Source: Candidatus Omnitrophota bacterium (lineage in GTDB: Bacteria > Omnitrophota > Gorgyraeia > 2-01-FULL-45-10). Taken from it: a stretch of 52,501 nucleotides of DNA. Every line of letters begins with the position of its first letter. The first letter of the stretch is position 1. The stretch spans positions 1 through 52,501 of the forward strand of contig JAHJHP010000022.1 of NCBI GenBank assembly GCA_018823705.1, read 5' to 3'. The notes under the pieces are model-generated. The model ran no database searches. It saw only the letters and a program-made list of their open reading frames with translations, and was not told the DNA's origin. Made by a program: the position numbers and the translations under genes. Shown piece by piece: positions 5,908 through 41,048 of this stretch.

Positions 5908-5927
5908 ATAGAGGGGTTCATAATTAA

Positions 5928-6239: not shown

Positions 6240-6241
6240 TT

Positions 6242-6799: not shown

Positions 6800-6805
6800 T
6801 ATAAG

Positions 6806-6991: not shown

Positions 6992-7013
6992 TAATCTAAA
7001 GGAAAGAGAGTGT

Positions 7014-7412: not shown

Positions 7413-7428
7413 TACGAAAGATATAACA

Positions 7429-7983: not shown

Positions 7984-8018
7984 AATATCGACTAAGAAAA
8001 GAGCAGAGCGGACAAAAA

Positions 8019-8387: not shown

Positions 8388-8404
8388 AGTAAGGGGAGCA
8401 TAAA

Positions 8405-9061: not shown

Positions 9062-9494
9062 GATAGGCGCTCCGATAGGAGCCAACAGAAAGACCAAGCG
9101 GCGCGGCAAAGGTTCGGGTTCCGGACATGGAAAGACCTCATGTCGCGGACGTAAAGGCGCGAAAAAACGCTCGGGCAGGACAACCCGTCCCGGTTTTGAA
9201 GGTGGACAGATGCAGCTTATAAGGCGTATCCCTAAAAGGGGTTTCGGCATCATGTTCAAGGTCTATAATCAGGTGGTCAATACCGAATCGCTTAACAGGT
9301 TTGCCGCGAACAGCATTGTAGGACCGGCAGAATATAAGGAAGCGGGCTTGATAGGCAGCACCAAGGAGCCCGTAAAGGTCCTTGGCCACGGGAAGCTCGA
9401 GAAAGCGCTGACTGTAAAGGCGCATAAATTCTCAGAGAGCGCAAAGAAGCTACTTACAGCCGCCGGCGCGAAGATCGAATACATAAAGTTATAA
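9048..9494 (+). CDS. rplO: 50S ribosomal protein L15
   Basis: L15 (148 residues) is a late-assembly large-subunit protein. The GTG start at 9048, inside the end of rpsE, yields [20 protein letters not shown], matching the family start. The Gly/Arg/Lys-rich stretch [36 protein letters not shown] and [20 protein letters not shown] are diagnostic. The stop is followed after one base by the secY start. Confidence 0.97.
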
Positions 9495-9495
9495 G

Positions 9496-10848: not shown

Positions 10849-10858
10849 AGGAGTTAAG

Positions 10859-11515: not shown

Positions 11516-12267
11516 TCGTCCTGCGTAGCGAAGACGAGATATCGTCGATGCGCAGCGCCGGCAAGATAATCAAAGCAACTTTTGAGGTCTTGCGAAAACG
11601 GGTGGCTCCCGGAGTGCGGACCGTCGAGCTTGACACCGTCGCCAGGCAGGAGATCCTGAAACTGAACGGCATACCGGCGTTTAAGGGGATAAGGGTGGGT
11701 AGCCGCTCTTACCCCGCGAATATATGCGCGTCGGTCAATGAAGTCGTCGTACATGGCATACCTTCCGAACGGGTCTTGAGAGAAGGCGATATACTTTCGA
11801 TCGATATAGGCGTTAAATTCAGGGAATATTATGCCGACGCTGCGATCACCGTAGGAGTCGGAAGGATAAGCGAAGAGGCCAATGAACTTTTATCGGTAAC
11901 GGAGACCTCTCTCGCTAAAGGGATAGAGAAAGCTACAGTCGGTTCGCGACTCGGTGATGTATCGGCTGAGATTCAGAAGTATGTCGAGGATCATGGTTTC
12001 AGCGTGGTGAGGGACCTGGTAGGGCATGGCATAGGAAGCGCTCTGTGGGAGGATCCGCAGATACCGAATTACGGAAAACCGGGGACCGGCCCGCGGCTTG
12101 CCGCCGGGATGGTTCTGGCGATAGAGCCGATGGTAAACGCGGGGACTTATGAAGTCGAGACACTGGCGGATGGCTGGGCTGTAGTTACATGTGACAGAAA
12201 GCTTTCGGCCCATTTCGAGCATACGATAGTCATAAGGGAAGGCGGAGCTGAGATTCTAACAGCTTAA
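11512..12267 (+). CDS. map: Methionine aminopeptidase, type I
   Basis: Type I methionine aminopeptidase removes the initiator Met from nascent proteins. The 251-residue protein has the pita-bread enzyme pattern: [23 protein letters not shown] and [12 protein letters not shown] (two metal-binding Asp), [19 protein letters not shown] (His), [10 protein letters not shown] (Glu) and [10 protein letters not shown] (Glu). No N-terminal zinc domain is present. It overlaps adk by four bases and leads into infA. Confidence 0.97.
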
Positions 12268-26543: not shown

Positions 26544-26575
26544 TTGACAGATTGTGTTGAATGAGTAATAATAAT
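26544..26575 (+). promoter_or_regulatory. Promoter of the corrinoid island
   Basis: A consensus TTGACA at 26544-26549 is followed 16-17 bases later by TAATAAT-type A/T sequence (26566-26575). The start point would fall just upstream of the riboswitch aptamer at 26583. The -10 position is ambiguous because TAATAATAAT repeats itself. Confidence 0.6.
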
Positions 26576-26916: not shown

Positions 26917-26960
26917 GGGTTATTTTGCGGGAGCCATAACAACATAAGGGGGTGATTGAG

Positions 26961-27077
26961 GTGGAGAAAAAATCGCATAGAATAAAGAAGAGCGTTATTG
27001 CATGTCGTAAAAAGTGCAAAGTCAGCGGCGCAGGATTATCGCATTATGTTCTATTGGAAAAAGAGAAGAAATCGTAA
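26961..27077 (+). CDS. cbpA: Short Cys-containing peptide, candidate precursor for the adjacent radical SAM enzyme (CbpA-like)
   Basis: This 38-residue gene lies between the riboswitch and the radical SAM gene. The GTG at 26961 has AAGGGGG eight bases upstream; an in-frame GTG at 26952 would add three residues. The peptide is basic (starts MEKKSHRIKKSVIACRKKCK) with cysteines at 15 and 19, then a short VSGAGLSHYVLLEK tail. A small Cys/Gly/Ser peptide ahead of a SPASM radical SAM protein is the layout of RiPP precursors. I recall a database family of such peptides, CbpA, tied to cobalamin control, but could not search for it. Confidence 0.65.
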   Translation: MEKKSHRIKKSVIACRKKCKVSGAGLSHYVLLEKEKKS

Positions 27078-27098
27078 TGTGAAGAAATAATTATAGGT

Positions 27099-28478
27099 AT
27101 GAAAACTCAAGCTTATTTTAATACAGGTGAAGGGGATAGTCTTCAGCCAATAGACATTGGTCACAGGGACTATGCTTGTGTGGTTTCCGCTGATACGGCA
27201 TTCTGGGCGCTGGTAAGGAAGGATAGATTAGCCGGCGCCCGGAACGTCTCGTCGCTTTTAAATGCATATCGCATGAAAGCGAAGTCCTTCGCGGGCGAAA
27301 TCCATGCTTTGCGGTTTAAATTGAAGCCATCAGCCGTATATTTTAATCCTACGGACAGATGTAACCTCAATTGCTCTTATTGTTATATTCCTGAAAGCTT
27401 GCGTAAAAGCGGTACGCATATGTCCACCGCAAAGCTTTTGAAAGCGTTACAGACTCTCAAGAATTATTTTAAGTCCAGTCTTCCGCGAGAGCAAAAGCCT
27501 CAGATCATTTTTCATGGGGCCGAACCACTGCTTAATAAGCAAGCCGTTTTTACCGCGATAGATTGGTATAAGAAAGATTTTCGCTTTGGCGTTCAGACTA
27601 ACGGAACGCTATTGGATGATGATGCGTTGGAATTTCTGACCTCAAGGGGTATAAGCATAGGCCTTTCCCTGGATGGCCACACAGATATTATAGCCGATCG
27701 ATTGAGGCGGAATTGGAATGCTGAAGGCGTTTCCAGGAAAGTCACAGAGATTATTAGGCGACTCAAAGGGTATCATAATTATTCTGTCATCTGTACCGTA
27801 ACGCGTGAAAATATGTCGTCACAAGCTAAGATAGTCGAGCTTTTTCACCACATGGAAGTGCCGATTTGCATGCTCAATCCCGTTCGCTGTACACTCCCGG
27901 GCGGTTACAAGCAGAAGCCATCGGATGAAGAAGCCGCGGCACATTATATGAGTGCGCTGGATCGTGCTTATGAGCTTTATCGTAAGACCGGCCGTAAGCT
28001 GATAGTGGCGAATTTTGCTAATATTTTGATAAGTATTCTCGCGCCAACAGCCAGGCGGCTTATGTGCGATATCTCGCCATGCGGGGCCGGAAGGTGTTTC
28101 TTCGCGGTTTCGAGTAAAGGCGATATCTTCCCTTGCAGTGAATTCATCGGAGTAAAGAAGTTTAGGGGAGGCAATATTTTCAGAGAAGATATACGCGCAG
28201 TCCTAAAGACAGCGCCATTCAAAACTGTTACCGAAAGGCGTATTGAAGATATCGTACCCTGTTCGCGCTGCGCTATTCGTCATTTTTGCGGAGCACCATG
28301 TCCTGCCGAAGCGTGGACCATAAACGGTCGAATGGCTTCTCGGGGCGCATTCTGCAGGTTCTATGAAGAGCAGGTTCGATACGCGTTCAGATTGATCGCT
28401 GATAATAAGGAGGACGCGTACTTATGGGATGGATGGGATAAGGGCACGTTGACAACGTTCAATTCAAGAGGGAAATAG
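27099..28478 (+). CDS. cbpB: Radical SAM/SPASM peptide-modifying enzyme (CbpB-like)
   Basis: A 459-residue radical SAM protein. An 80-residue N-terminal region (which may engage the peptide) precedes the CNLNCSYCY cluster motif, with C88, C92 and C95 binding the SAM-cleaving 4Fe-4S cluster. FHGAEPLLN and VQTNGTLL follow, as in anaerobic sulfatase-maturase/peptide-maturase types. The C-terminal SPASM domain has many Cys (CDISPCGAGRC, FPCSEF, CSRCAIRHFCGAPC, FC), enough for two auxiliary clusters. It starts 21 bases after the small peptide gene and is first in the riboswitch-led operon. The modification it makes is unknown to me. Confidence 0.82.
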   Translation: MKTQAYFNTGEGDSLQPIDIGHRDYACVVSADTAFWALVRKDRLAGARNVSSLLNAYRMKAKSFAGEIHALRFKLKPSAVYFNPTDRCNLNCSYCYIPESLRKSGTHMSTAKLLKALQTLKNYFKSSLPREQKPQIIFHGAEPLLNKQAVFTAIDWYKKDFRFGVQTNGTLLDDDALEFLTSRGISIGLSLDGHTDIIADRLRRNWNAEGVSRKVTEIIRRLKGYHNYSVICTVTRENMSSQAKIVELFHHMEVPICMLNPVRCTLPGGYKQKPSDEEAAAHYMSALDRAYELYRKTGRKLIVANFANILISILAPTARRLMCDISPCGAGRCFFAVSSKGDIFPCSEFIGVKKFRGGNIFREDIRAVLKTAPFKTVTERRIEDIVPCSRCAIRHFCGAPCPAEAWTINGRMASRGAFCRFYEEQVRYAFRLIADNKEDAYLWDGWDKGTLTTFNSRGK

Positions 28479-28498: not shown

Positions 28499-29140
28499 AT
28501 GGTGAGACTCATCTTAATACGTCATGGCGTAACGGAATGGAATAGCGACAAGCGTTATTGTGGTAGTAGAGATATAGGTTTAAACGATGAAGGCAGGTCT
28601 CAGGTTAAGCTATTATCAGATAAACTTAATGCCCTCAGATTCGATAAAGTATATTACAGTCACAAAAAGCGCGCGATGCAGACCGCGCGAATACTTTTTA
28701 ATCAAGCAGGAATGATCCCAAGCCGGGGCTTGCGTGAAATCAGTTTCGGTATGATTGAAGGCCTGAAGCATGAGGAAGTCAGAAGGAAGCACGCTTCTGT
28801 ATATGAGAACTGGCTCAAGGACCCTTTCACTAACAATATTCCTCGGGCAGAGCCGATGAATAGTTTTAAAAATAGAGTCGAAAGATCCATGCGGAGTATT
28901 GTTCGATCAAATTCCGGTAAGACGATTGCCGTTGTATGTCATGGCGGAGTGATAGGCATATTTTTGGCCGGGATATTAAAAACAAGAGATTTTTGGCGGT
29001 GTGTACCGTCGCCGGCAAGCGTTACCGTGGTAGAACATAGGAAGGGTAAGCTCATATTAAAAAAATTCAACGATACGGCCCATCTAAAGGTGATCCCCGT
29101 TAGAAAGACGGGGCTTTCTAACGGGGTGAGCGATGAGTAA
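28499..29140 (+). CDS. cobC: Histidine phosphatase, probable alpha-ribazole phosphatase
   Basis: A 213-residue histidine-phosphatase-superfamily protein: LILIRHGVTEWN holds the phosphorylated His9, YYSHKKRAMQTARIL the Arg, and VVCHGGVIG the second His. Placed just before cobU, cobT and cobS, it most likely removes phosphate from alpha-ribazole phosphate or cobalamin phosphate. The last residues (IPVRKTGLSNGVSDE) are encoded by a palindromic repeat, so the natural C-terminus was probably altered by an insertion. Phosphoglycerate mutase is the alternative reading. Confidence 0.82.
   Translation: MVRLILIRHGVTEWNSDKRYCGSRDIGLNDEGRSQVKLLSDKLNALRFDKVYYSHKKRAMQTARILFNQAGMIPSRGLREISFGMIEGLKHEEVRRKHASVYENWLKDPFTNNIPRAEPMNSFKNRVERSMRSIVRSNSGKTIAVVCHGGVIGIFLAGILKTRDFWRCVPSPASVTVVEHRKGKLILKKFNDTAHLKVIPVRKTGLSNGVSDE
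29095..29126. repeat. Palindromic repeat inside the 3' end of cobC
   Basis: CCCCGTTAGAAAG (29095-29107) and CTTTCTAACGGGG (29114-29126) form a perfect 13-bp stem around ACGGGG. The core CCCGTTAGAAA/TTTCTAACGGG recurs at 35008-35062 at the start of the DUF71 gene. It lies in the coding sequence and supplies the last residues of CobC. Confidence 0.85.
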
Positions 29141-29654
29141 AATGATTTTTGTTTTCGGAGGCGCGCGAAGCGGCAAAAGCCGGTATGCTGTAGAGGCGGC
29201 AAAAAGATACGGAAAGAAGTCAGTATTTATTGCCACGGCCGCAGCGCTGGATGATGAGATGAGAGAAAGGATACGCCTTCATAAGATCTCGAGGCCAAAA
29301 GGATGGGGACTTATTGAGGAGCCAATGAATTTGAGCGATGCTGTCCTCGGATTGAAGGCGATATATGATGTGGCGGTCATTGATTGCGTGGGATTATGGG
29401 TATCCAATCTTTTAATGGCCAATATGAAAGACGGTGATATAGAGAAAAGAACTAAAAAATTGGCCACCAGTATCATTAAAGCTAAAATCAGTCGCGTTAT
29501 CATAGTATCTAATGAAGTGGGGGAAGGGATAGTTCCCGGCGATCCGTTATCCAGGAGGTTTCGTGATCTTGTCGGATCGGCAAATCAGGTAATGGCGGCG
29601 AAAGCAGATGAAGTTATCATGATGAAGGCAGGGATACCGATAATAATAAAATAG
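29133..29654 (+). CDS. cobU: Adenosylcobinamide kinase/adenosylcobinamide-phosphate guanylyltransferase
   Basis: CobU phosphorylates adenosylcobinamide and then activates it with GMP. The P-loop FGGARSGKSRYA is at residues 8-19 and IRLHKISRPKGW contains the family H-X3-RP motif with the guanylylated His. VIDCVGLWVSNLL and IVSNEVGEGIVPGDPLSRRFRDLVG are further CobU signatures. Normal length (173). It overlaps the end of cobC by 8 bases and precedes cobT. Confidence 0.95.
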   Translation: MSKMIFVFGGARSGKSRYAVEAAKRYGKKSVFIATAAALDDEMRERIRLHKISRPKGWGLIEEPMNLSDAVLGLKAIYDVAVIDCVGLWVSNLLMANMKDGDIEKRTKKLATSIIKAKISRVIIVSNEVGEGIVPGDPLSRRFRDLVGSANQVMAAKADEVIMMKAGIPIIIK

Positions 29655-29662: not shown

Positions 29663-30718
29663 ATGAAATTATTGAATGAAACGATATCAAGAATCGGCAA
29701 AATAGACAATTCGTTATCAGGTGAAACTCAAGAAAGGCTCGACAATCTGACAAAGCCGCAGGGGAGCCTCGGAAGATTGGAAGAGTTAGCCAGGCAGATC
29801 GTAGAGATAACGAGGGCCAGGAACCCGGAGTTAAAGCACAAAATTATATTCACGATGGCCGGAGATCATGGCGTCGTTGAAAATAGCGTAAGCGCCTTTC
29901 CGCAGGAAGTGACTCCTCAGATGGTCTACAATTTTTTAAATGGCGGGGCGGGGATAAACGTTCTCGCACGGCACGTAGGCGCAAGGGTAGTTATCGTCGA
30001 TATGGGAGTTGCGTGTGATCTTAAAGATAATCCGGCGCTTGTGGTAAAGAAAGTTAATTACGGCACGAAGAACATGACAAAAGGACCCGCGATGTCGAAG
30101 GACGAGGCTATCAAGTCCATTGAAAATGGCATAGAGGCATTCAATGAAGCGTTGCCGGGCGGAATAGATATAGTCGGGACAGGGGATATGGGTATCGGTA
30201 ATACCACTCCTTCAAGCGCTATCGTTGCTACCATAGCCGGCCGGAATGTGGAAGAGGTGACGGGCAGAGGCACCGGGATAGATGACAAAACCTTATCCGG
30301 TAAGATCGCCGCTATCAAAGAAGCTTTGAAAGTAAATAAGCCGAACCCAAAGGACGGCATAGATATCCTGTCTAAGGTGGGCGGATTTGAAATAGGTGGC
30401 CTGGCAGGAGTAATGCTGGCTGCCGCGGCACACAGGATACCGATAGTGATAGACGGATTTATATCCGGGGCGGCTGCGCTAATAGCGTATACATTAGAAC
30501 CGAAAATTAAAGATTACATGATAGCTGCCCATTGCTCTGTCGAACAGGGCCATAAGGTGGCGCTCTCATTTTTAGGGCTTAAACCTATACTTGATCTAAA
30601 CTTAAGGCTGGGCGAGGGAACCGGCGCGGCATTAGCCATGAGCATAATAGAGGCCGGCACCAGGATATTAAATGAGATGGCGACGTTCGAAAGCGCCGGT
30701 GTTTCCGAGAAGGGCTAA
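29663..30718 (+). CDS. cobT: Nicotinate-nucleotide--dimethylbenzimidazole phosphoribosyltransferase
   Basis: CobT activates the lower-ligand base to alpha-ribazole phosphate. The 351-residue protein begins with LDNLTKPQGSLGRLEELA, has MAGDHGVVENSVSAFPQEVT, a GTGDMGIGNTTPSSAI loop and, near the C-terminus, LRLGEGTGAALAM with the catalytic Glu. Nine bases separate it from cobU and four from cobS. The base it activates (DMB or other) cannot be read from the sequence. Confidence 0.96.
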   Translation: MKLLNETISRIGKIDNSLSGETQERLDNLTKPQGSLGRLEELARQIVEITRARNPELKHKIIFTMAGDHGVVENSVSAFPQEVTPQMVYNFLNGGAGINVLARHVGARVVIVDMGVACDLKDNPALVVKKVNYGTKNMTKGPAMSKDEAIKSIENGIEAFNEALPGGIDIVGTGDMGIGNTTPSSAIVATIAGRNVEEVTGRGTGIDDKTLSGKIAAIKEALKVNKPNPKDGIDILSKVGGFEIGGLAGVMLAAAAHRIPIVIDGFISGAAALIAYTLEPKIKDYMIAAHCSVEQGHKVALSFLGLKPILDLNLRLGEGTGAALAMSIIEAGTRILNEMATFESAGVSEKG

Positions 30719-30721
30719 TAG

Positions 30722-31471
30722 ATGAACCCCAAAAGACTTCTAGTTGCTTTACAGTTCTTAACTATCATTCCTTTTAAAATTAAGGGAAAGGTCGAGGATA
30801 AAGATCTCGGGAGATCGCTTATTTACTTCCCGATAGTGGGCTTTTTAATAGGTCTTTTTCTGGCCGGCATAGCTTTTGTCTCATCGTCTCTGCCGCCGCT
30901 AATTATGAGCGTCTTAATACTGAGCGCATGGGTAATTATAACGGGAGGCATACATTTAGACGGGCTTGCGGATACCTGCGATGGTTTTTACGGAAACCGC
31001 CCCAAGGAAGATATTTTAAAGATAATGCGTGACAGTCGTATCGGGACCATGGGTGCCGCAGGCATTGCGCTCACTCTGCTCTTTAAATTCGCTATTCTCT
31101 CAAGCATACGTCCGGAATATCTATGGAAGGTTTTGATCATAGCGGTAGTATTTGCCAGATGGTCTCAAGCGTTCGCGTGCGTTACATCCAGATATGCGCG
31201 AGATGATGGCAAGGCAAAATATTTTATAGAATACGCGAAGAAGAGCGATGTCTTTACAGGGGCTGTATTTGCGCTGCTTCTAAGCTGGTTATTCATGGGC
31301 ATAGGAGGCGTGATCCTGTTTGTTATCATGTCGGTCGTGGTATTTATATTCATACAGTATGCCAAGAGAAAGATCGGCGGGATGACAGGAGACACGATAG
31401 GCGCTGCCAATGAAATTGCCGAGTCAGCCACGCTCTTATTCAGCTTAATATTAGCAGGTTATAAAATATGA
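30722..31471 (+). CDS. cobS: Adenosylcobinamide-GDP ribazoletransferase (cobalamin synthase)
   Basis: CobS joins adenosylcobinamide-GDP and alpha-ribazole (or its phosphate) in the membrane. It begins RLLVALQFLTIIPFK and contains the Mg-binding GGIHLDGLADTCDGF motif near residue 80, with several hydrophobic spans, and GDTIGAANEIAE near the C-terminus. Length (249) is typical. The stop overlaps the next gene by four bases. Confidence 0.95.
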   Translation: MNPKRLLVALQFLTIIPFKIKGKVEDKDLGRSLIYFPIVGFLIGLFLAGIAFVSSSLPPLIMSVLILSAWVIITGGIHLDGLADTCDGFYGNRPKEDILKIMRDSRIGTMGAAGIALTLLFKFAILSSIRPEYLWKVLIIAVVFARWSQAFACVTSRYARDDGKAKYFIEYAKKSDVFTGAVFALLLSWLFMGIGGVILFVIMSVVVFIFIQYAKRKIGGMTGDTIGAANEIAESATLLFSLILAGYKI

Positions 31472-32526
31472 TCGATCGAATTCATGGCGGGAATTGTTCA
31501 AGGCGGGATGTCATAGACTTCAGCGTGAATACAAATCCATTAGGTTTACCCGAAGGGCTGGCAGATATTATCTCGAGAAACGTTGATAGTATTCTTCACT
31601 ATCCGGATCCGTCTTCGGAAAGATTGAAGAGTAAGTTATCTATATTACACGGTGTAGCGCCGAAAAATCTCGCTATAGGTAATGGTTCCATAGAGCTCAT
31701 TTATCTTGTCCCCAGGGCTTTTAAAATAAAACAGCCGCTTATGATTACGCCGACATTCAGCGAATATGAATTTGCTGTCAGATCCAGTGGCTCGAGGCCC
31801 GTATTTTTCAATGCTTGCGAAAAAGATAACTTTAAGATCGATTGCGGTAAACTAGCGAAACATCTGCCGCGCTGCGACGCCTTATTCTTGTGTAACCCGA
31901 ATAATCCAACCGGCACTTTGCTGCATAGTGACGAGGTGTTGTATTTGTCGCGTCATGTAAAAAAGCATAGAGGCCTCTTGATACTCGATGAGGCGTTCAT
32001 CGAATTTACCGAACAGTCGAAAAGCGCAGCTGTCATATCGGAGGCCGTTAAAAACAAATCATTGGTTATCTTAAGGTCGATGACCAAATCCTTCTCTATA
32101 CCGGGCTTAAGGCTCGGATACGTTATAGGGCATAAAGAGATGATAGAAAAGATTGCGAGACTTCTATACCCATGGAATGTAAACGGCCCTGCGCAGCTTG
32201 CGGGCGAGAAAGCCTTAGCAGATAAAGATTATATGAAACGGACCCGGCTATTTGTAGCCAATGAACGGCGATACATGTCCGGGAGATTAAGCAGTATAAA
32301 AGGATTGAAAGTTTTTCAATCGTCAGCGAACTTTATTTTATGCAAGCTGCAGGATGCTCCGATAGTTAGCTCTCTCACGCTGACGCGTCGGTTATTGCGC
32401 GAAGGCGTCTATATCCGCGATTGCGGAAATTTCAGGGGATTAGGCGATAAGTTCTTTCGTGTAGCGGTAAGGAAGAGAGATGATAGCGATCGGTTGATAA
32501 AGAGCATCGGGAAGATATTTCAATGA
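31468..32526 (+). CDS. cobD: CobD-type threonine-phosphate decarboxylase (PLP aminotransferase fold)
   Basis: A 352-residue fold-type I PLP enzyme related to histidinol-phosphate aminotransferases. IHGGN near the N-terminus is characteristic of CobD, which makes aminopropanol phosphate for the nucleotide loop. FSVNTNPLGLP, FLCNPNNPTGTLL, ILDEAFIEF and SMTKSFSIPGLRLGY (Schiff-base Lys) follow. The position between cobS and cobQ strongly supports the corrinoid role over histidine synthesis. It overlaps both neighbours by four bases. Confidence 0.86.
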   Translation: MIDRIHGGNCSRRDVIDFSVNTNPLGLPEGLADIISRNVDSILHYPDPSSERLKSKLSILHGVAPKNLAIGNGSIELIYLVPRAFKIKQPLMITPTFSEYEFAVRSSGSRPVFFNACEKDNFKIDCGKLAKHLPRCDALFLCNPNNPTGTLLHSDEVLYLSRHVKKHRGLLILDEAFIEFTEQSKSAAVISEAVKNKSLVILRSMTKSFSIPGLRLGYVIGHKEMIEKIARLLYPWNVNGPAQLAGEKALADKDYMKRTRLFVANERRYMSGRLSSIKGLKVFQSSANFILCKLQDAPIVSSLTLTRRLLREGVYIRDCGNFRGLGDKFFRVAVRKRDDSDRLIKSIGKIFQ

Positions 32527-34049
32527 ACCGCGCAAAAACAGTGCATATCTGCGGAACAGGCTCAGGTGTAGGCAAGAGTGTTGTAGTTAGCGCCTTGTGC
32601 AGGATCTTTTTACAGGACGGATACAAAGTCTGCCCGTTCAAAGCGCAAAACATGGCTCTTAATTCTTTCGTTACCAAAGAAGGTGGTGAGATAGGCAGAG
32701 CTCAGGCTTTCCAGGCCGAGGCCTGCCGGATAGAGCCGCATGTTGACATGAACCCTATATTAATGAAACCTACCGCAGATAAGCATGCGCAGGTGATAGT
32801 TCACGGAAAGCCTATTGCGAATATGAGCGCCATTCGTTATATACGGCATAAGAAACGATTGTCTAGGGAGGTCTTTAGTTCTTTCGATAGGCTTTGCAAG
32901 AAATATGAATTGGTAGTTATGGAGGGCGCCGGAAGCCCCGCCGAGATAAATTTAAAAGCGCACGATATCGTTAACCTCAAAATGGCACATTACGCCGGCG
33001 CGCCTGTGATCTTAATCGGTGATATCGATAAAGGCGGCGTTTTTGCGTCGCTTGTAGGGACGCTGGAGCTACTGGACCGCGAAGAGAAAGAACAGATAAA
33101 AGGGTTTATAATCAATAAATTCAGGGGAGATATCAAGCTCCTTAAACCCGGTATAGATTTCCTGGAAAAAAGAACGGGCATAAAAGTCCTCGGGGTTATT
33201 CCGTACTTTCACCCATCGGGCCGCAGCGGCATAAAAATCTCAGAGGAAGACTCGGTGCCTCTGGATAATCATAAAAGTACCGATAGGCCCGCCCGTCGCA
33301 AGCTGAACGTAGATGTAATATATCTTCCGCATATCTCTAATTTTACCGATTTTGACGCGCTGGATAGGGAGCCGGATGTAAATTTGCGCTATATAAAAAG
33401 CCCTGAGGCATTAAACCGGCCGGATATTATTATAATTCCGGGGACGAAGAATACGGTAAATGACCTGCGATATATAAAGGAATCGGGATTCGCGAAAAAG
33501 ATAAGCAGCGTTATGAGAAAAGACGCATTACCTGTACTGATGGGGATATGCGGCGGGTTCCAGATGCTGGGGAAGAGGATACGCGATCCGCACCGAACCG
33601 AATCGTCTCAAAAAGAGACGAACGGACTGGGATTGCTGGAAATGGAGACGGTTTTTAGCAAAGTTAAGGTTCTTTCGCAAGTTAAAGCAGAAGAAGTATC
33701 CTCAGGGCTGGATGTATCAGGATATGAGATACATCATGGGAGATCGTGGAATAATGGAAAACATAGCCCGGCTTTCAACATAATAAAGCGAAGGGGAAGA
33801 GCTGTCCGGGATACTGACGGCATAATAGCGATGAACGGCAGGTTATTTGGAACATATATACATGGCATATTTGACGCAAATGCATTCAGAAGAAACTTTC
33901 TGAACAGAATACGATTAAGGAAGGGATGGGGCCCATTGCTTGATAAGGCCAGCTTCGATCCCGACCATGAGCTGGATAAGCTGGCCAGCTTTGTCCGTAA
34001 AAACATAGACATGAAATATCTCTATAATATAATAAAGGACGGAGGTTAA
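32523..34049 (+). CDS. cobQ: Cobyric acid synthase (CobQ/CbiP)
   Basis: CobQ amidates four side chains of adenosylcobyrinate a,c-diamide. The N-terminal ATPase domain opens VHICGTGSGVGKSVVVSALCRIF and has PFKAQNMALNSFV; VVMEGAGSPAEINLK is conserved in the family. The C-terminal glutamine amidotransferase domain shows IIPGTKNTVNDL and the nucleophile Cys in MGICGGFQMLG, with YEIHHGRS containing the His. Length (508) is normal. It overlaps cobD by four bases. Confidence 0.96.
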   Translation: MNRAKTVHICGTGSGVGKSVVVSALCRIFLQDGYKVCPFKAQNMALNSFVTKEGGEIGRAQAFQAEACRIEPHVDMNPILMKPTADKHAQVIVHGKPIANMSAIRYIRHKKRLSREVFSSFDRLCKKYELVVMEGAGSPAEINLKAHDIVNLKMAHYAGAPVILIGDIDKGGVFASLVGTLELLDREEKEQIKGFIINKFRGDIKLLKPGIDFLEKRTGIKVLGVIPYFHPSGRSGIKISEEDSVPLDNHKSTDRPARRKLNVDVIYLPHISNFTDFDALDREPDVNLRYIKSPEALNRPDIIIIPGTKNTVNDLRYIKESGFAKKISSVMRKDALPVLMGICGGFQMLGKRIRDPHRTESSQKETNGLGLLEMETVFSKVKVLSQVKAEEVSSGLDVSGYEIHHGRSWNNGKHSPAFNIIKRRGRAVRDTDGIIAMNGRLFGTYIHGIFDANAFRRNFLNRIRLRKGWGPLLDKASFDPDHELDKLASFVRKNIDMKYLYNIIKDGG

Positions 34050-34050: not shown

Positions 34051-34989
34051 GTGCGGATCATTTGCATTCTCGGGGCATATCTGTTAGACCTTATTTTCGG
34101 CGATCCGCCTTCATTTCCGCATCCGGTAAGAGGTATCGGATGGTTTATAGGTAAATTGGAAGAGCCGTTCAGGTCTATCATTAAAAATGAGCGTATCGCC
34201 GGTACTTTTTTTGCCTGCACTGTAATAACTACGACATGGCTTATAACTTTTGCGATAACATATGCGGCAAATTCTTTTAATAATTATCTTGGCGCTGTTA
34301 TTTCGACCATCATCATTTATACTTCATTATCGGTAAAGGATCTGGGCGTCCAAAGTCTGGCGGTCTTCGACGCGTTAAACGAAGGTAATCTGAATAAAGC
34401 CAGGATGTTGCTTTCCAGAATAGTGGGGAGGGATACTGCAAATCTGGATGAGAGAGAAATTATAAGAGCCACAGTAGAGACAATCGCCGAGAATATCGTT
34501 GATGGTATAATATCGCCTATATTCTATGCCTTTCTGGGCGGCGCTCCTCTCGCTATGGCGTATAAGGCCGTCAATACCCTGGATTCTATGATCGGCCACA
34601 AAAATAAGCGGTATTTATATTTTGGCCGGGCTGCCGCGAAGATAGATGATATTGCGAATTTCATTCCTGCCAGGCTATCAGTAGTATTTTTGGCCATTGC
34701 AAGCTGGATCAGTAGCTATAATCCCATCAAGACATGGAGCATTGCAATACGTGATGGGCGACGGAATCCCAGTCCCAACAGCGGCTTGCCTGAGGCGGCG
34801 GTTGCCGGTGCCCTTGGAGTTCGGTTGGGGGGATTGAATTATTATGATTCGGCAGCGGTTCATAAATCGTATATAGGGGATGATAACAACCCTTTAACCA
34901 GATTACATATTAAAGAGGTTATTAAGATAGCTTACATTACATCTGCTTTATTTGTAATTTCAGGAACAGTTTTATTCTGGTTGATATGA
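34051..34989 (+). CDS. cbiB: Adenosylcobinamide-phosphate synthase (CbiB)
   Basis: CbiB attaches aminopropanol (phosphate) to cobyric acid, in the membrane. The GTG start at 34051 gives ICILGAYLLDLIFGDPPSFPHPVRGIGWFI, a CbiB signature; SRIVGRDTANLDEREIIRATVETIAENIVDGIISP and NTLDSMIGHKNKRYLYFGRAAAKIDD are also diagnostic. Several membrane spans are visible. Its stop overlaps the next ATG at 34986. Confidence 0.95.
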   Translation: MRIICILGAYLLDLIFGDPPSFPHPVRGIGWFIGKLEEPFRSIIKNERIAGTFFACTVITTTWLITFAITYAANSFNNYLGAVISTIIIYTSLSVKDLGVQSLAVFDALNEGNLNKARMLLSRIVGRDTANLDEREIIRATVETIAENIVDGIISPIFYAFLGGAPLAMAYKAVNTLDSMIGHKNKRYLYFGRAAAKIDDIANFIPARLSVVFLAIASWISSYNPIKTWSIAIRDGRRNPSPNSGLPEAAVAGALGVRLGGLNYYDSAAVHKSYIGDDNNPLTRLHIKEVIKIAYITSALFVISGTVLFWLI

Positions 34990-35708
34990 AAAGGAAGATT
35001 TTTATGAATCCCGTTAGAAATAGCGGATCTAAAAGATTGTGTTCAAAAATTTCTAACGGGATGAAGGTGATTTCCTTGTGGAGCGGTGGCAAGGATTGCT
35101 GCCTTGCGTGTTATAGGGCAAAAACTCAAGGCTATGATATTGTGAGTCTTCTTAATTTCACTACCCCTTTAGAGGAGAGTTCATTATCTCACGGGTTGAG
35201 TGCCCGGGTAATAGACCGCCAGGCTAAAATGACCGAAATACCTTCTTTCCAGAAGGCTATGCCGAAAGAAGGCTATCGCGATGAGTTCAAGAGCCTAATC
35301 GAGGAATGGAAAAGGACGAAAGGCATAGCAGGGATCATTTTCGGCGACATCTACCTCGAGGGCCATAAGGAGTGGATAGATAGCGTCTGCCGGGAACTCC
35401 AGGTAACTCCCGTTATGCCTATCTGGGCCAGGGATACAACCGGCCTCATGAACGAGTTCATAAGCCTCGGTTTTAAATCGATAATAGTCGCCACGCGAGT
35501 AGATAAGCTTGGCAAGGAGTGGCTTGGCCGCGAGATCGATGCTAACCTTATGAAAGAATTTGAGGGTATGGGTAACATAGATCCGTGCGGTGAAAACGGC
35601 GAATTCCATACGTTCGTTTATGACGGCCCGCTATTTAAGGAAAAGGTCAAGTTTAGCAAAGGTAACAAGATCCTGCGTCGCGGCCGATGGTTTTTGGAGG
35701 TTATGTAA
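34986..35708 (+). CDS. DUF71/COG2102 ATP pyrophosphatase, B12-associated subgroup
   Basis: A 240-residue PP-loop ATPase: KVISLWSGGKDCCLACYRA carries the SGGKD pyrophosphatase motif, and IFGDIYLEGHKEW and DPCGENGEFHTFVYDGP are DUF71 signatures shared with diphthine-ammonia ligase. Comparative genomics has proposed a B12-salvage subgroup of this family, and this copy sits among corrinoid genes, which fits. The first 25 residues (from MKRKIF) come largely from a palindromic repeat; the ATG at 35061 is the more natural start (215 residues). Confidence 0.8.
   Translation: MKRKIFMNPVRNSGSKRLCSKISNGMKVISLWSGGKDCCLACYRAKTQGYDIVSLLNFTTPLEESSLSHGLSARVIDRQAKMTEIPSFQKAMPKEGYRDEFKSLIEEWKRTKGIAGIIFGDIYLEGHKEWIDSVCRELQVTPVMPIWARDTTGLMNEFISLGFKSIIVATRVDKLGKEWLGREIDANLMKEFEGMGNIDPCGENGEFHTFVYDGPLFKEKVKFSKGNKILRRGRWFLEVM
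35008..35062. repeat. Palindromic repeat at the start of the DUF71 gene
   Basis: ATCCCGTTAGAAAT (35008-35021) and ATTTCTAACGGGAT (35049-35062) form a perfect 14-bp stem with a 27-base loop. Read in frame it gives NPVRNSGSKRLCSKISNG, a repeat-derived string that I associate with many unrelated metagenomic proteins. Its right arm ends on the likely original start codon at 35061. The core matches the palindrome at 29095-29126. Confidence 0.85.
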
Positions 35709-36580
35709 TGAGAAGATATCAGCTTCTTACCGTATCGATCCTTTTTACCGCAGCCGCGCTCCAGGCCTTGTCTGCCAACGATGTGTGCGCGTCGGAAAAT
35801 CATCCAAAGCGGATAATCTCTCTGGCGCCGTCGACGACCGAGGAGTTATATTTGCTGGGAGCGGGGGATAGGCTGGTCGGCGATACCACTTACTGCGTGA
35901 CTCCGCGGGCGGCGCGCTATAAAGAAAAAGTCGGCTCTTTGACTAAGGCGGATTTGGAGAAGATCGTAGTATTAAAACCCGACCTGGTACTGGCCACGTC
36001 TATTACAAATCCTAAAGCGATACAAAAGCTCAGAGACCTGGGAATAGAGGTAAGAATATTTCCGGCGCCAAAAACTTTTACCATTTTATGCGATCAATTT
36101 GTGGAATTAGGCATAGCTGTGGGGCAAGAGCTTCGGGCGCGGGAGATAGTTAAAGCGGCGGAAGAAAAAGTCGCCGATATTAAGGCCAGGACAGCCACGT
36201 TTGTTAAACCAAAAGTTTTCATCGAGATCGGAGCGAAGCCTCTCTTTACCGCTAACAGTGACTATATTATTAACGATTTTGTGAAGCTGGCCGGCGGAGA
36301 GAACATTGCTGAAAGCTCCAGCATCGGCAGTTACAGTAAGGAAGAGGTCTTGAGAAGAGATGCGGATGTGATACTGATCGTGACGATGGGTTTTGCGGGT
36401 GAGGCGGAGAGAGAAGCGTGGCGGAAGCTTAAAACGCTGAATGCCGTAAAGCACGATAGGATCTATATCATCAGTTCGCAGAAGATGTGCGGCCCTACCC
36501 CTGTGACTTTTGTCAAAAGCCTGGAAGAGATAAGCGTCCTGCTCCATCCGGAATTATCGGAGAAAAAAAGAGATGAGTAA
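35708..36580 (+). CDS. btuF: Corrinoid ABC transporter substrate-binding protein (BtuF-like)
   Basis: A periplasmic helical-backbone binding protein of 290 residues. The N-terminus MRRYQLLTVSILFTAAALQA is a signal peptide, with likely cleavage near residue 28. The BtuF-type fold is seen in KRIISLAPSTTEELYLLGAGDRLVGDT, IVVLKPDLVLA and LRDLGIEVRIFPAP. It starts in the previous stop codon (TAATG) and overlaps btuC. Vitamin B12 is the inferred ligand from context; iron-chelate binding proteins share the fold. Confidence 0.87.
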   Translation: MRRYQLLTVSILFTAAALQALSANDVCASENHPKRIISLAPSTTEELYLLGAGDRLVGDTTYCVTPRAARYKEKVGSLTKADLEKIVVLKPDLVLATSITNPKAIQKLRDLGIEVRIFPAPKTFTILCDQFVELGIAVGQELRAREIVKAAEEKVADIKARTATFVKPKVFIEIGAKPLFTANSDYIINDFVKLAGGENIAESSSIGSYSKEEVLRRDADVILIVTMGFAGEAEREAWRKLKTLNAVKHDRIYIISSQKMCGPTPVTFVKSLEEISVLLHPELSEKKRDE

Positions 36581-37583
36581 TAGAGCGATGCCCCGGACAG
36601 TACGGGTAATAATGTTAGGAGGAGCGCTTCTACTGATAGCGGCAATGTCATTATGTCTGGGCCCCACCGCTCTATCAGTCAAAAGATCAGTGCATGCTAT
36701 TATCTCCGGCCATAATACTACGGAATATAGCATTCTTTTTGACATTCGCCTGCCGCGTATCATTCTGGGGTTTGCCATCGGTGGCGCGTTGAGCCTGGCC
36801 GGCGTTATTCTGCAGGGGCTCTTTCGAAATCCGCTGGTCGAACCCTATACGATGGGTATCTCCGGCGGCGCGGCGCTGGGAGTCAGCCTGGCGATTGTCC
36901 TAAAATTATATCGGTCGATGGGATTACTGACACTGCCGTTTGCAGGTTTCATCGGTGCGGCTATTGTTATTTCGATGATATACTTTATTAACATCAGAAA
37001 GAAGACATTAAAGATACAGAGCCTGCTCTTGACCGGCGTTATGATAAGCTTCATATCATCGTCTTTTATAATGCTTATTATGGCCGTTTCCCGCACGGAG
37101 GACCTGCATGGTATTATCTTCTGGATAATGGGTTCATTGGAAGAGCCGAGCTGGTTTCTTATTAAAGTAATGCTCGTTACGTCTTTAGCAGGGTTGGCTT
37201 TGTCATATATTTTTTGGAAGGATCTGAACGCGTTACGTCTGGGAGAAGAGGAAGCCACGCACCTAGGCATAAATACTGAAAGAGCGAAAAGAGCGCTCTT
37301 TGTGCTGGCATCGATCCTTACCGGATGCGCTGTTTCCGTAGGAGGGATCATCGGGTTTGTCGGCCTGATCATTCCACATCTCGTGCGTATGTTTATAGGC
37401 TCTGATCATAGAGCTCTTCTGGTGGGATCATTTTTAGGCGGAGCGTCTTTTCTGATCTTCTGCGATACCGTGGCCAGGATAATTGTCGCGCCTTCCGAGC
37501 TGCCGGTCGGTGTAATTACCGGCATATTGGGGGGAAGCTTTTTTATTTACGCGTTAACTAAGAAAGGAAAGTCTGTTGTTTGA
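36573..37583 (+). CDS. btuC: Corrinoid ABC transporter permease (BtuC/FecCD family)
   Basis: A 336-residue FecCD-family permease with about ten membrane spans. FDIRLPRIILGFAIGGALSLAG, FRNPLVEPYTMGISGGAALG and the C-terminal GGIIGFVGLIIPHLVRMFIGSDHR (ATPase-coupling helix) are family signatures. It overlaps btuF and btuD by 8 bases each, so the transporter is translated as a unit. Substrate is inferred from the surrounding corrinoid genes. Confidence 0.91.
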   Translation: MSNRAMPRTVRVIMLGGALLLIAAMSLCLGPTALSVKRSVHAIISGHNTTEYSILFDIRLPRIILGFAIGGALSLAGVILQGLFRNPLVEPYTMGISGGAALGVSLAIVLKLYRSMGLLTLPFAGFIGAAIVISMIYFINIRKKTLKIQSLLLTGVMISFISSSFIMLIMAVSRTEDLHGIIFWIMGSLEEPSWFLIKVMLVTSLAGLALSYIFWKDLNALRLGEEEATHLGINTERAKRALFVLASILTGCAVSVGGIIGFVGLIIPHLVRMFIGSDHRALLVGSFLGGASFLIFCDTVARIIVAPSELPVGVITGILGGSFFIYALTKKGKSVV

Positions 37584-38376
37584 AATAAGGGACCTGACAT
37601 GCGGTTACGAAGAGAGATTTCATCTTAAAGGTGTAGATCTCGCGATCAAAGAAGGCGGTTTCTTTGGGATAATAGGCCCGAACGGATCCGGCAAAACAAC
37701 GCTTTTGCGGGCCATGACCCGTATCCTGAGGCCGGGAAAAGGAGAGGTGCTCCTTCGGGGGAAGAATATATGGCACATAGGTCTTGGGGAGCTGGCCAGA
37801 ACTATATCGGTTGTTTCTCAAAACGTATCTACCGATGATCTCAATGTGGGCGAATTTGTCCTTCTCTCGAGAATACCTCACTACAGAGGCCTTCAGTTTC
37901 TGGAGACGAAACACGATGAAGAGATCGCCGACAACGCGATGATATTGACCGACACCCTTAAGTTTAAGGATAGGGCTATGTCAGAGATATCGGGCGGCGA
38001 AAGGCAGCTTGTCCTGATCGCGCGTGCTCTGGCGCAAGAGCCGAAATATCTTCTTCTGGATGAACCCACATCGCATCTTGACATAACGCATCAGGTTCGC
38101 GTTCTCGATCTATTGAAAAGGTTAAACAGAGAATTATCCCTTACCGTGATCATAGTCCTGCATGACCTTAACCTTGCCAGCGAATATTGCGACAGGGTGG
38201 CGCTTTTGTCCGGAGGCGCCGTATACAAAGAAGGTTCGCCGCAGGACGTCCTGGATTATAAAACCATCGAAGATGTTTACAAAACAGTAGTCGTTGTGGA
38301 AAAGAACCCGATATCCTTAAAACCATATATCATTCTTATCTCGGAAGAAGAAAGGCGAAAGGTGCGTAAAAAATGA
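37576..38376 (+). CDS. btuD: Corrinoid ABC transporter ATP-binding protein (BtuD-like)
   Basis: A 266-residue ABC ATPase. The TTG start at 37576 lies in the end of btuC. Walker A is GPNGSGKTT, the signature SGGERQLVLIARALAQEPKYLLLDEPTSHLDI combines the LSGGQ-type motif, Walker B and D-loop, and the switch His is in VLHDLNLA. It completes the BtuFCD-type importer. Its stop overlaps cobO by four bases. Confidence 0.93.
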   Translation: MFEIRDLTCGYEERFHLKGVDLAIKEGGFFGIIGPNGSGKTTLLRAMTRILRPGKGEVLLRGKNIWHIGLGELARTISVVSQNVSTDDLNVGEFVLLSRIPHYRGLQFLETKHDEEIADNAMILTDTLKFKDRAMSEISGGERQLVLIARALAQEPKYLLLDEPTSHLDITHQVRVLDLLKRLNRELSLTVIIVLHDLNLASEYCDRVALLSGGAVYKEGSPQDVLDYKTIEDVYKTVVVVEKNPISLKPYIILISEEERRKVRKK

Positions 38377-38903
38377 CGCGAAAAGGTTTAATTCATATCT
38401 ATACAGGTGACGGTAAGGGAAAAACCACGGCGGCGATCGGCCTGGCCATAAGAGCCGTGGGGCACGGTTTTAAAGTCGCTTACATATATTTTCATAAGGA
38501 CCCGAAGCGGTGGGGTTATGGAGAACATAAGGTTCTAAGAACGATCGGCGTGGATGTTTTTGGTTTTGCCAGGAGACACCCGCATTTTTATAAGAAATTA
38601 AATCCGGATGAAGTTCGAAAAGAGTGCTTAAAAGGGATGCGATTTATCGAATCGCTCTATAAGAATAACAAATACAATATGATCATCCTGGATGAATTAA
38701 TGATTTCCCTACGAGACGGTTTTTTAAAAAAAGAGGAAGTTATGAATATAATGAAAACAAAGCCCAGGGGCCTGGAGCTCGTGCTGACAGGCCGGGGCGC
38801 GAAAAGGGGGGTGGTCAGATGCGCTGATCTTGTGAGTAAAATAGAAAAAATCAAACACCCGTACGATTCAGGGGTACAAAGACGAGTCGGTATTGAGTAT
38901 TAA
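38373..38903 (+). CDS. cobO: Corrinoid adenosyltransferase (CobO/BtuR/CobA type)
   Basis: This enzyme adds the 5'-deoxyadenosyl ligand to corrinoids. GLIHIYTGDGKGKTTAAIGLAIRA holds the P-loop of the BtuR family, and NMIILDELMISLRDGFL and LVLTGRGA are conserved. At 176 residues the length is normal. It is the last gene before the second riboswitch and follows the importer, so imported corrinoid is adenosylated at once. Confidence 0.94.
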   Translation: MTRKGLIHIYTGDGKGKTTAAIGLAIRAVGHGFKVAYIYFHKDPKRWGYGEHKVLRTIGVDVFGFARRHPHFYKKLNPDEVRKECLKGMRFIESLYKNNKYNMIILDELMISLRDGFLKKEEVMNIMKTKPRGLELVLTGRGAKRGVVRCADLVSKIEKIKHPYDSGVQRRVGIEY

Positions 38904-39044: not shown

Positions 39045-41048
39045 ATGAAAACGAAATATATTTTTGTATTATTATTTATTCTGGTAACGAACGGCATGGC
39101 ACATGCCGAAGATAATTCATCCGCTTCAACTGCTACGCGTCTCGAGCCTATAGTAGTAACTTCATCCAGGGTAGAAAAAGGTTTATCGGCTGTTGCCGCC
39201 AGCGTGAGCGTTGTCACAGAAGAAGAAATAAAAAGGTCTGACGCTAAAACTGTCCCGGATGCTCTCAAGGATCTGCAGGGCATATATGCGTATGATGCCA
39301 CCGGTGTGGGCGCGGGGGGAACATTAAATATGCGCGGTTTTTATGGCGGAATGTCGAGTCATCAACTTGTCTTAGTGGACGGGATACCCCAAAATAAGGG
39401 CAAGGATAAGCTGGTGAACTGGGATCTGATACCCATCAATAATATCGAACGCATAGAAGTTATGAGAGGGCCCGCCTCGAGCCTTTATGGCGATAACGCC
39501 ATGTCGGGTGTGATCAATATAATAACTAAAAAACCGAGCAGCGCCCCGCATGCCGGCGTCTTTTTTTCATACGGCACTTACGCTACGCAGAATTACGCTT
39601 CATATTTCTCGGGGGAATTTAATAGTCTCGGGTATTACATGGGCGTAAGCAGCAGGCTGACGAACGGATTTCGCGAACATGGCGATTATGAAAATATACA
39701 AGCCTATGGCAAGATCGATTATTCAATAAACGACGAGCATAATTTAAAGTTAAATTTCGATTATAGCGTTAAAACTCAAGGGGCATTCCCGTGGTCGTTG
39801 TCGGCGGCCCAGATTGCGCAAAACAGGCGTCAGGCCAGGCCCGGAGCAGAGAACGATTCCACCGGCGCGGATAAGTTCTCGATGGACCTTACCCATAACT
39901 GGGGTCTCGGATCATCCTCTAATCTCGAAACGATATTCTATTATAGGTTTGACGGGATGGAATCATTTTATACCAGAGGCGCGTCGCAAAATACCACCAG
40001 AGAACAGATTGAAGCCGAAAATACGTTTGGCTTACCCGTTCGCTTAAAGACAGTGTCGGAAATCCTGGGTATGAACCATTCGTTTGTTATTGGTACCGAC
40101 CTCGAGCGAAACGACTTCGATTACGAACAGAATAACGCGCCATTTCAAAATAGGCGTGGCGCACCAACTGCCAGCTACGCTGTCGTGAAAAGCATGGTAG
40201 GGCCATATCTTCAGGATGAGATCAGGGTTTTAGAAGCCCTGAAGGTTATTTGTGGCGTGCGTTATGATTGGATAAAGTTTAATTTTGATGATAGGAGGCT
40301 ACCATCAAATTCTAAAAACAAACTGATGTCGAAAGTAACGCCTAGTTGTGGTGTGGTGTGGGCCTATCAGAAAGATTCCGAATTGTATGGAAACATTGGC
40401 CGGGCTTTTCGATCTCCTACCATAGGCCAGATGTTTACTTATGGGAGCTCCGCGAACATAAATCTATTACCCGAAGAAGCCATAAACTATGAGATAGGTG
40501 TGCGTCATCGCTTTAATGAGCGCCTCAAGACAAGTGTAAGCGTCTATTGGATGAAGGTAAGTAACGAGATATGGTATGATAACGCCAGCAGACAGTATCA
40601 AAATTATGGCAGGACGTTTCACGATGGAATGGAATTGAGCGCTGATTTTAAAGTCGCGGACCCCCTGACAATCTTCGGTAATTATACATACACAAGAGCC
40701 GTGGATGATAGCGATGGCGTTTTGAAGAATAAATTCCTGGTCAATGTTCCGATTAATAAGGGGACTATAGGGATGAACATATATACGGAGCTTGGCTTTA
40801 AGGCCTATGTGGCATCAACGTGGGTGGGAAAGGCATACATAGATTCGGCTAATGTTGATGTGTTGGGGCATTATAATACGTTAGACGCGAAGATATCATA
40901 TAAATATAAATGGCTTGAGGCGTTTGTTGCCGCATATAATATATTTGATAAAGAGTATAATTCTTCCGGATATAAGAGCGCGAGGATAAACTACTTTACT
41001 CCTGAGCCCGGGAGAACATTCGAGGTTGGGGTAAGCGGCGAGTTTTAA
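39045..41048 (+). CDS. btuB: TonB-dependent outer-membrane receptor, BtuB-like
   Basis: This 667-residue receptor has a signal peptide (residues 1-21, ending MAHA), a TonB box-like LEPIVVTSSR segment, and a plug domain with VPDALKDLQGIY, NMRGF, LVLVDGIPQNKG, IERIEVMRGPASSLYGDNAMSGVINIITKKP. The long C-terminal region of alternating residues is the beta-barrel, ending in FEVGVSGEF with the terminal Phe typical of barrel proteins. Riboswitch control and location identify corrinoids as the probable cargo. AGGAGG-like sequence lies just upstream. Confidence 0.92.
   Translation: MKTKYIFVLLFILVTNGMAHAEDNSSASTATRLEPIVVTSSRVEKGLSAVAASVSVVTEEEIKRSDAKTVPDALKDLQGIYAYDATGVGAGGTLNMRGFYGGMSSHQLVLVDGIPQNKGKDKLVNWDLIPINNIERIEVMRGPASSLYGDNAMSGVINIITKKPSSAPHAGVFFSYGTYATQNYASYFSGEFNSLGYYMGVSSRLTNGFREHGDYENIQAYGKIDYSINDEHNLKLNFDYSVKTQGAFPWSLSAAQIAQNRRQARPGAENDSTGADKFSMDLTHNWGLGSSSNLETIFYYRFDGMESFYTRGASQNTTREQIEAENTFGLPVRLKTVSEILGMNHSFVIGTDLERNDFDYEQNNAPFQNRRGAPTASYAVVKSMVGPYLQDEIRVLEALKVICGVRYDWIKFNFDDRRLPSNSKNKLMSKVTPSCGVVWAYQKDSELYGNIGRAFRSPTIGQMFTYGSSANINLLPEEAINYEIGVRHRFNERLKTSVSVYWMKVSNEIWYDNASRQYQNYGRTFHDGMELSADFKVADPLTIFGNYTYTRAVDDSDGVLKNKFLVNVPINKGTIGMNIYTELGFKAYVASTWVGKAYIDSANVDVLGHYNTLDAKISYKYKWLEAFVAAYNIFDKEYNSSGYKSARINYFTPEPGRTFEVGVSGEF

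Follow-up and report, generated by a model that had tools for sequence, protein, structure and literature searches.

A 52,501-nucleotide stretch from a Candidatus Omnitrophota bacterium (contig JAHJHP010000022.1; hereafter the window) carries a corrinoid operon in which a gene for a DUF71 protein lies between cbiB and a btuF-like gene. By motif, neighbors and tree, this protein is a member of DUF71-B12, a known, uncharacterized subgroup of the family, and we tentatively propose that DUF71-B12 proteins could perform an ATP- and ammonia-dependent amidation of side chains on imported corrinoids. ATP would turn a free carboxylate on a side chain of such a corrinoid into an adenylate with release of pyrophosphate, and ammonia would displace AMP to give the side-chain amide, which would amount to the chemistry of Dph6 transferred to a corrin substrate. 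Corrinoids arriving with missing or hydrolyzed amides would thus be completed or repaired, alongside CobQ where present. Both the substrate, a corrinoid carboxylate, and the reaction, an amidation, are what we infer from the computed support, which comprises the fold, the ATP loop, the riboswitch operon, the placement in a B12 clade, the retention of the gene in genomes lacking CbiB and CobS, its coupling to CobQ within the protein's own clade, and purifying selection.

Fold and subgroup of the DUF71 protein

The gene is contained in an uninterrupted open reading frame (ORF) of 240 codons at 34986-35708 on the plus strand. The PF01902 profile matches residues 26-239 at 164.1 bits (E 4.5e-48, cut-off 23.2, domain positions 1-214 of 219), which confirms that the match is not due to chance and that the ORF is real; a chance ORF at this place was ruled out on the same ground. 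In this 1.70-Mb genome, which is 99% complete, there is no second PF01902 gene, and PF01902 is the sole match of the protein at E <= 0.001, so that the CbiZ domain, PF01955, was not matched. An AlphaFold model from a 14-sequence alignment has a mean predicted local distance difference test score (pLDDT) of 94.2, and the top structures found by Foldseek are archaeal Dph6-type proteins (2D13, template modeling score 0.88; 3RK1 with ATP, 0.87), bearing out the view of a first-pass annotation of this DNA that the gene encodes an SGGKD-type ATP enzyme related to diphthine-ammonia ligase. The protein resembles Dph6 (PF0828, PDB 3RK1; PH1257, PDB 2D13; yeast YLR143w) in fold and in ATP loop, with about 30% of residues identical when the structures are aligned, and differs from it in having His where PF0828 and PH1257 have Glu188, and at N32, D96, W105 and Q64. 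With His in the E188 column and a TIGR03679 score of 135.5 bits, below the equivalog cut-off of 197.3, a genuine Dph6 was rejected.

Databases presumably tend to label DUF71-B12 genes as diphthine-ammonia ligases, and we know of no need for that reaction in bacteria; Su et al. reportedly proved the Dph6 reaction in vitro. Dph6 is described as using ATP to convert a carboxylate to an adenylate, from which ammonia yields the amide (PMC3585130). Since the Dph6 fold and ATP residues are kept in the window protein and Dph6 amidates a carboxylate, amidation is favored. The retained ATP-binding residues are those listed in the 2012 paper that defined the subgroup (S8, G9, G10, K11, D12, H44 and T184); the loop SGGKD (residues 8-12 counted from 35061; 35082..35096, plus strand) has G10 and K11 invariant in a 14-row alignment and at 100% in every residue-comparison group.

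That paper split DUF71 into Dph6, with the motif EGGE/DxE188, and DUF71-B12, with ENGEF/YH188 (de Crecy-Lagard et al. 2012, PMC3541065), and reported that DUF71-B12 genes adjoin B12 transporter genes in 75/102 cases and cbiB in 18/102. The window protein has GENGEFHT, of the DUF71-B12 type, in place of EGGE/DxE (motif ENGEFHT from PMC3541065, residues 178-184, 35592..35612, plus strand, with H183 at the column of Dph6 E188). Upstream of the gene is cbiB and downstream are btuFCD-like genes, and the genome has no CbiZ, a weak criterion given that only 2 of 270 genomes in the phylum have one. On a quick tree of 182 rows, the smallest starred set containing the window has 19 rows, all with B12 genes in their context (18 distinct rows, as L084 and L121 are one contig), with an SH-like approximate likelihood ratio test support of 97, and the B12-context labels change 23 times on this tree vs 57 when shuffled. 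The membership in the published B12-linked subgroup that had been suggested, for which a tree placement had been named as the check, is therefore upheld. Compared with the subgroup as published, the window protein has the same fold and ENGEF/YH motif, is likewise encoded between cbiB and btuFCD in a salvage genome without CbiZ, and is distinguished only by a 57-bp in-frame insert at its start that is missing in two sisters.

It is very improbable that the protein is a generic PP-loop enzyme with no corrinoid role, whether placed in the operon by accident or serving in housekeeping. The motif His is shared by all 27 of the other-type DUF71 rows in the phylum for which the stretches read show no B12 context, and the published ENGEF/YH motif is therefore not specific to B12-linked members. 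Against such a generic role stand the riboswitch operon, the B12 context of the whole 19-row set, and two other residues: Asn32 is fixed in 69 B12-type phylum rows vs Thr in 100% of the 27 others, and Trp105 is found in 100% of the 69 vs Tyr in 89% of the 27, a split that is less sharp among named genomes outside the phylum. The second DUF71 type in the phylum (L090-L119) has mostly ENGEFH, Thr32 and mostly Tyr105, with B12 neighbors mostly absent; four of its stretches (L101, L102, L108, L110) carry a btuR-like and a receptor-like gene.

Distribution of DUF71-B12 among corrinoid salvagers

We surveyed 270 genomes of the same phylum with an estimated completeness of at least 90%, where absence means no match there. 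PF01902 was above cut-off in 103 genomes, and CbiB was found in 53, CbiZ in 2, CbiC in 11, CobS in 99 and CbiA, above cut-off, in 20. Sixty-eight genomes were counted as B12-type: 67 with a PF01902 score of at least 156 bits, plus G074, which has a fragment within a B12 cluster. G091, with a fragment next to a contig end, and G037, which scores 150 bits and has no B12 neighbors, were left out, as were G230, G243 and G245, which have a lower-scoring DUF71 near btuFCD-like genes. The 111 phylum hits above 50 bits comprise the window's own, 101 in 100 fetched regions and nine of the weakest, which lie outside those regions (G026, G052, G066, G067, G068, G223, G227, G262, G266). Neighboring genes took their names from BLAST comparisons with the proteins of the window; "tonB" and "btuFCD" accordingly denote likeness to those.

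CbiB was present in 29 of the 68 B12-type genomes, the window's among them, and absent in 39, ten of which also lack CobS (G083, G103, G104, G116, G120, G126, G165, G173, G259, G275). In many genomes, then, DUF71-B12 must act without CbiB, and in some without CobS. In eight of the ten, btuFCD lies near DUF71; in the stretches from G083 and G165 no btuFCD was seen, only a receptor-like gene, with a weak cobD-like match in G165 as well. The latter genome also has its B12-type DUF71 broken by a TAG stop (L087, about 954-1619), possibly a decaying copy. Four layouts recur: the window's own arrangement, cbiB included; btuFCD-cobC-U-T-S-DUF71-receptor, with cbiB, cobD and cobQ absent; cobQ-DUF71 with cbiB absent; and btuFCD-DUF71, with a receptor in most, in genomes without CobS. 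Among the phylum rows, the window excluded, the gene directly downstream of DUF71 is a TonB receptor in 32/68 and btuF in 24/68. What is constant across carriers is transport plus DUF71, joined by CobQ in the window's clade. PF02310 B12-binding domains occur in all 18 genomes tested (17 CbiB-less carriers and the window's genome, G000), as well as in 12 of 14 control genomes, which says only that B12-binding proteins exist. Relatives of DUF71-B12 with B12 neighbors extend to archaea and several bacterial phyla, and 12 of 28 followed-up named genomes outside the phylum have no CbiB, with fragments only in two more; these 28 came from 80 named loci, mostly picked for having no local cbiB and of completeness not given, so 12/28 is no frequency.

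These counts bear directly on the published proposal that DUF71-B12 is a CbiZ-like hydrolase (PMC3541065, which also reports a strict anti-correlation with CbiZ in bacteria). In that proposal, pseudo-B12 or another cobamide would be cut at its aminopropanol amide to adenosylcobyric acid (or pseudo-B12 would be salvaged in some other way), and CbiB would rebuild from there. Because its product is cobyric acid, such an enzyme is useful only with CbiB. Salvagers that have CbiB do need something to feed it, and 29 of the 34 genomes with CbiB and without CbiA carry a B12-type DUF71, the remaining five being G030 (contig ends at cobD), G071, G110 (other DUF71 type), G192 and G267, which has CbiZ. 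In G071 (L208, 3647-5806), the slot of DUF71 between cbiB and btuF is filled by a TrpD-like phosphoribosyltransferase (TIGR01245, 293 bits) and an ORF read as alcohol-dehydrogenase-like. DUF71 was likewise found in neither of the two CbiZ genomes, although with p 0.53 this contrast carries no information within the phylum. In the 39 genomes without CbiB, however, cleavage would destroy the cofactor; with neither CbiB nor CobS, cobyric acid and cobinamide are not rebuildable by a known route. Some of the CbiB-less cases are nested in clades with CbiB, purifying selection acts on the gene in four CbiB-less sisters, and the conserved ATP loop would be superfluous for a hydrolase. We therefore consider a CbiZ-like role unlikely, and the present survey departs from the subgroup as published on this point as well as on the specificity of the motif. 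CbiZ and CbiR, the cobamide-remodeling enzymes, resemble DUF71-B12 in salvage context and in their transporter gene neighbors (reported in PMC7733943), but the CbiZ domain is not in the window protein, and what these enzymes produce can be used only with CbiB or CobS, often missing from DUF71 genomes.

Persistence of DUF71 without CbiB and, in ten of those genomes, without CobS favors amidation. An amidation-like reaction, which the first-pass annotation had thought likely, is thus left as the likeliest by the distribution data, even though the 2012 paper itself proposed a hydrolase. The same annotation took the chemistry to be unassigned, and we found no experimental follow-up or assigned reaction since 2012 in the open literature, a search whose coverage leaves out most subscription journals and preprints: PMC5481537 mentions DUF71 once, in its reference list; PMC8305020 has haloarchaeal Dph6 as its subject; and the CbiR paper, PMC7733943, is not among the open papers mentioning both DUF71 and cobamide. 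To speak of a candidate "missing step" of salvage was too strong, since salvage clusters without DUF71 exist (L203, L216, L217, L218).

CobQ, CbiA and the proposed amidation

A CbiA-type amidase differs from DUF71 in fold and contains a glutamine amidotransferase domain. The amidation by CobQ proceeds in four steps, whereas the targets of CbiA are the a and c chains (PMC8123684). A careful tree of 69 B12-type rows from 66 genomes (G165, with its internal stop, and G074 are missing from it) falls into three main groups. The window's clade has 18 rows from 17 genomes (support 99/97), and clade III has 34 rows, 33 of them without CbiB (99/96); clades I and II mostly have CbiB. CbiB presence changes four times on this tree, and all four changes are forced by well-supported branches. 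CobQ is present in all 17 genomes of the window's clade vs 5 of the 51 other B12-type genomes, so the pairing with cobQ that had seemed suggestive at this locus is real in its clade, while CbiB is present in 13 of the 17.

The four others (G141, G145, G149, G150) have no cbiB, and cobQ stands immediately before DUF71, representing one loss event; because the gap between cobQ and DUF71 is closed in the operon itself, the evidence for this loss goes beyond gaps in assembly. For the four sister genomes, the ratio of nonsynonymous to synonymous substitution (simple Nei-Gojobori) is 0.10-0.15 for DUF71 and 0.10-0.11 for CobQ, and CobQ retains its GICGG motif; both genes are under purifying selection, unlike relics. 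A second loss is seen in G259, with the order receptor-cobQ-DUF71-btuFCD-btuR and neither CbiB nor CobS, and a third case of cobQ-DUF71 without CbiB comes from a Nitrospirae genome (G290, L149). Amidation is favored because the amide-forming CobQ is universal in the window's clade, its adjacency to DUF71 is kept after CbiB loss and both genes are under selection.

It is possible, if doubtful, that DUF71-B12, alone or with CobQ, might constitute a repair system that restores side-chain amides on imported cobamides that are finished in other respects, in which case CbiB, CobS and ring synthesis would be unneeded.

Several observations weigh against amidation. CobQ is present in only 22 of the 68 B12-type genomes (17/29 with CbiB, 5/39 without) and absent from 46, so the two need not go together. 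Nor is CobQ significantly enriched with DUF71 in CbiB-less genomes, with 5/39 among B12-type vs 4/79 among others (p 0.15; a control of 80 genomes from which G110, which has CbiB, was removed), or in CbiB-less genomes having CobS, with 4/29 vs 3/19 (p 1.0). As there is no significant enrichment among all CbiB-less genomes, what ties CobQ to DUF71 is the pattern in the window's clade and the adjacency of the genes, and CobQ without CbiB was dropped as a DUF71-only trait, being neither exclusive nor significantly enriched. The replacement of Dph6 E188 by His is a further point, and the chemistry may have shifted, given that the yeast Dph6 double change G216N, E220A at the motif led to complete inactivation (PMC3585130). 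The frequent presence of B12-type DUF71 in genomes with CbiB and without CbiA suits the published hydrolase idea, the availability of deamidated corrinoids as substrate is assumed, and the function of clade III may differ from that of clades I and II.

The absence of DUF71 from all 20 CbiA genomes was counted in favor of amidation. CbiA would do a similar job, turning a corrin carboxylate into an amide, and it follows cbiB, directly or past cbpB, in many de novo operons. Among genomes with CbiB, DUF71 of any type is found in 0/19 with CbiA vs 30/34 without (Fisher 7e-11). The 52 rows of a CbiB tree cover 51 of the 53 CbiB genomes (left out were G110, fragmentary, and G139, whose CbiB region was not fetched). 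On this tree, de novo and salvage operons share a cob module that includes cbiB; the gene after it is DUF71 in the salvage operons, whereas many of the de novo operons have cbiA there, either at once or with cbpB in between. No surveyed genome has both CbiA and DUF71, but this is largely a matter of de novo vs salvage: the exclusion comes down to five well-supported independent pairs (sign test p 0.125), and to two without de novo genomes. It thus mostly reflects de novo vs salvage and, without de novo genomes, decides nothing, which also weakens the case for amidation, and DUF71 as a plain replacement for CbiA was dropped for the same reason. Six stretches (L214, L215 and L224-L227, from G042, G051, G040, G041, G031 and G054) have cbiB then cbiA in genomes without CbiC, five of them with cobU-T-S-D-Q ahead of cbiB and L227 being cut by a contig end; these show late corrin steps including CbiA with no sign of ring synthesis by the CbiC marker.

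It is also conceivable, though again doubtful, that DUF71-B12 performs some other ATP-dependent corrinoid step, such as adenylation or trapping on import, or that its functions are specific to clades, III as opposed to I and II. Transport as the constant partner, the well-supported clade III and the lack of CobQ enrichment outside the window's clade are in keeping with this. A BtuR-like gene, however, lies nearby in the transport-only loci L030, L061, L062 and L075, so DUF71 is not a missing adenosyltransferase there, and the activation of a carboxylate or carbonyl is what PP-loop enzymes with the Dph6-type fold are chiefly known for.

Operon, gene start and outlook

The operon lies on one strand (plus for all features below), and some of its gene names rest on Pfam matches alone. 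At its head is a full-length cobalamin riboswitch aptamer (RF00174, 26566..26774, 99.8 bits, gathering 31.5, E 7.9e-24), and just 5' of it is a promoter-like TTGACA-17-AATAAT (26544..26572) that has 11/12 consensus positions and is weak, with 31 such sites vs 28.8 expected in shuffles. Between the riboswitch and the cob genes (26952-28478) lie a small modified-peptide precursor, CbpA (26952..27077, TIGR04164 36.8 bits, cut-off 35), and a peptide-modifying radical S-adenosylmethionine enzyme, CbpB (27099..28478, TIGR04163 683 bits, cut-off 375), a pair that links a modified peptide to corrinoid loci; in the relatives L036, L043, L054, L067, L071, L084, L134 and L143, too, a gene resembling cbpB lies close to DUF71, cobQ or cobD. 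There follow a cobC-like alpha-ribazole phosphatase gene (28499..29140, PF00300; TIGR03162 133 bits, under the cut-off of 162.9), cobU (29133..29654, PF02283 183 bits; NF004469 above cut-off), cobT (29663..30718, PF02277 462 bits), cobS (30722..31471, PF02654 202 bits), cobD for threonine-phosphate decarboxylase (31468..32526, TIGR01140 325 bits, cut-off 290.6), cobQ/cbiP for cobyric acid synthase, the four-step side-chain amidase (32523..34049, NF001989 630 bits and TIGR00313 530 bits, both above cut-off), and cbiB (34051..34989, PF03186 350 bits; TIGR00380 above cut-off).

Downstream of the DUF71-B12 gene (35004..35708; PF01902) are genes for a btuF-like periplasmic binding protein (35708..36580, ORF open from 35687; PF01497 110 bits; NF002894 BtuF 107 bits, under the cut-off of 234), a btuC-like permease (36573..37583, PF01032 310 bits), a btuD-like ATPase (37576..38376, PF00005 104 bits), a btuR/cobA corrinoid adenosyltransferase (38373..38903, PF02572 182 bits; TIGR00708 150 bits, under the cut-off of 167.8) and a TonB-dependent receptor that is BtuB-like by position (39045..41048, PF00593 and PF07715; TIGR01779 174 bits, under the cut-off of 599.7). 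A genome-wide profile search found no CbiZ (PF01955), no CbiC and no CbiA above cut-off, and by these markers the organism is a corrinoid salvager. A cobQ alone in a salvage cluster occurs in one control hit (L201, G153, 4001-11762: btuR-btuFCD-cobC-cobQ-receptor), where cobU, cobT, cobS, cbiB and DUF71 were not seen in the stretch and CobS, CbiB and DUF71 were unmatched genome-wide.

The start of the DUF71 gene had been placed at 34986, which is unlikely. The sister genes in G018 (L081) and G001 (L074) have an ATG shortly after a Shine-Dalgarno-like GAAAGGA/TAAAGGA, and the window has 57 additional in-frame bases (35007..35063) downstream of the matching ATG at 35004 that neither sister has; a perfect inverted repeat of 14 bp (35008-35062) underlies them. 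Because this palindromic insert sits there, translation probably starts at 35004 (AAAAGGA retained, adding 19 residues) or at 35061; the starts of relatives were also compared, and 34986 was rejected. A start at 35004 or 35061 leaves no overlap with cbiB, so of the claimed position between cbiB and btuF with overlapping ends, the neighbors stand and the cbiB overlap does not, while the in-frame ATG of btuF at 35708, which opens a signal-like sequence, would give an overlap of one base (TAATG). The palindrome arms, CCCGTTAGAAA, are thus in frame at the DUF71 start, adding 19 codons, and occur also near the 3' end of cobC, where a related palindrome lies at 29096-29125; a further copy with identical arm spacing is found in L042 (14738-14788). 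The element resembles the in-frame palindromic elements of Rickettsia.

The distribution found here speaks against the view that DUF71-B12 proteins in general form cobyric acid by cleavage, and clean test cases are offered by genomes with DUF71 and transport genes but without CobS or CbiB, and by those with cobQ-DUF71 but without CbiB. If the repair system were to prove true, CobQ would have a second, salvage-only role besides making cobyric acid, and if DUF71-B12 enzymes re-amidate imported corrinoids, B12 auxotrophs could use damaged vitamin that is now deemed useless.

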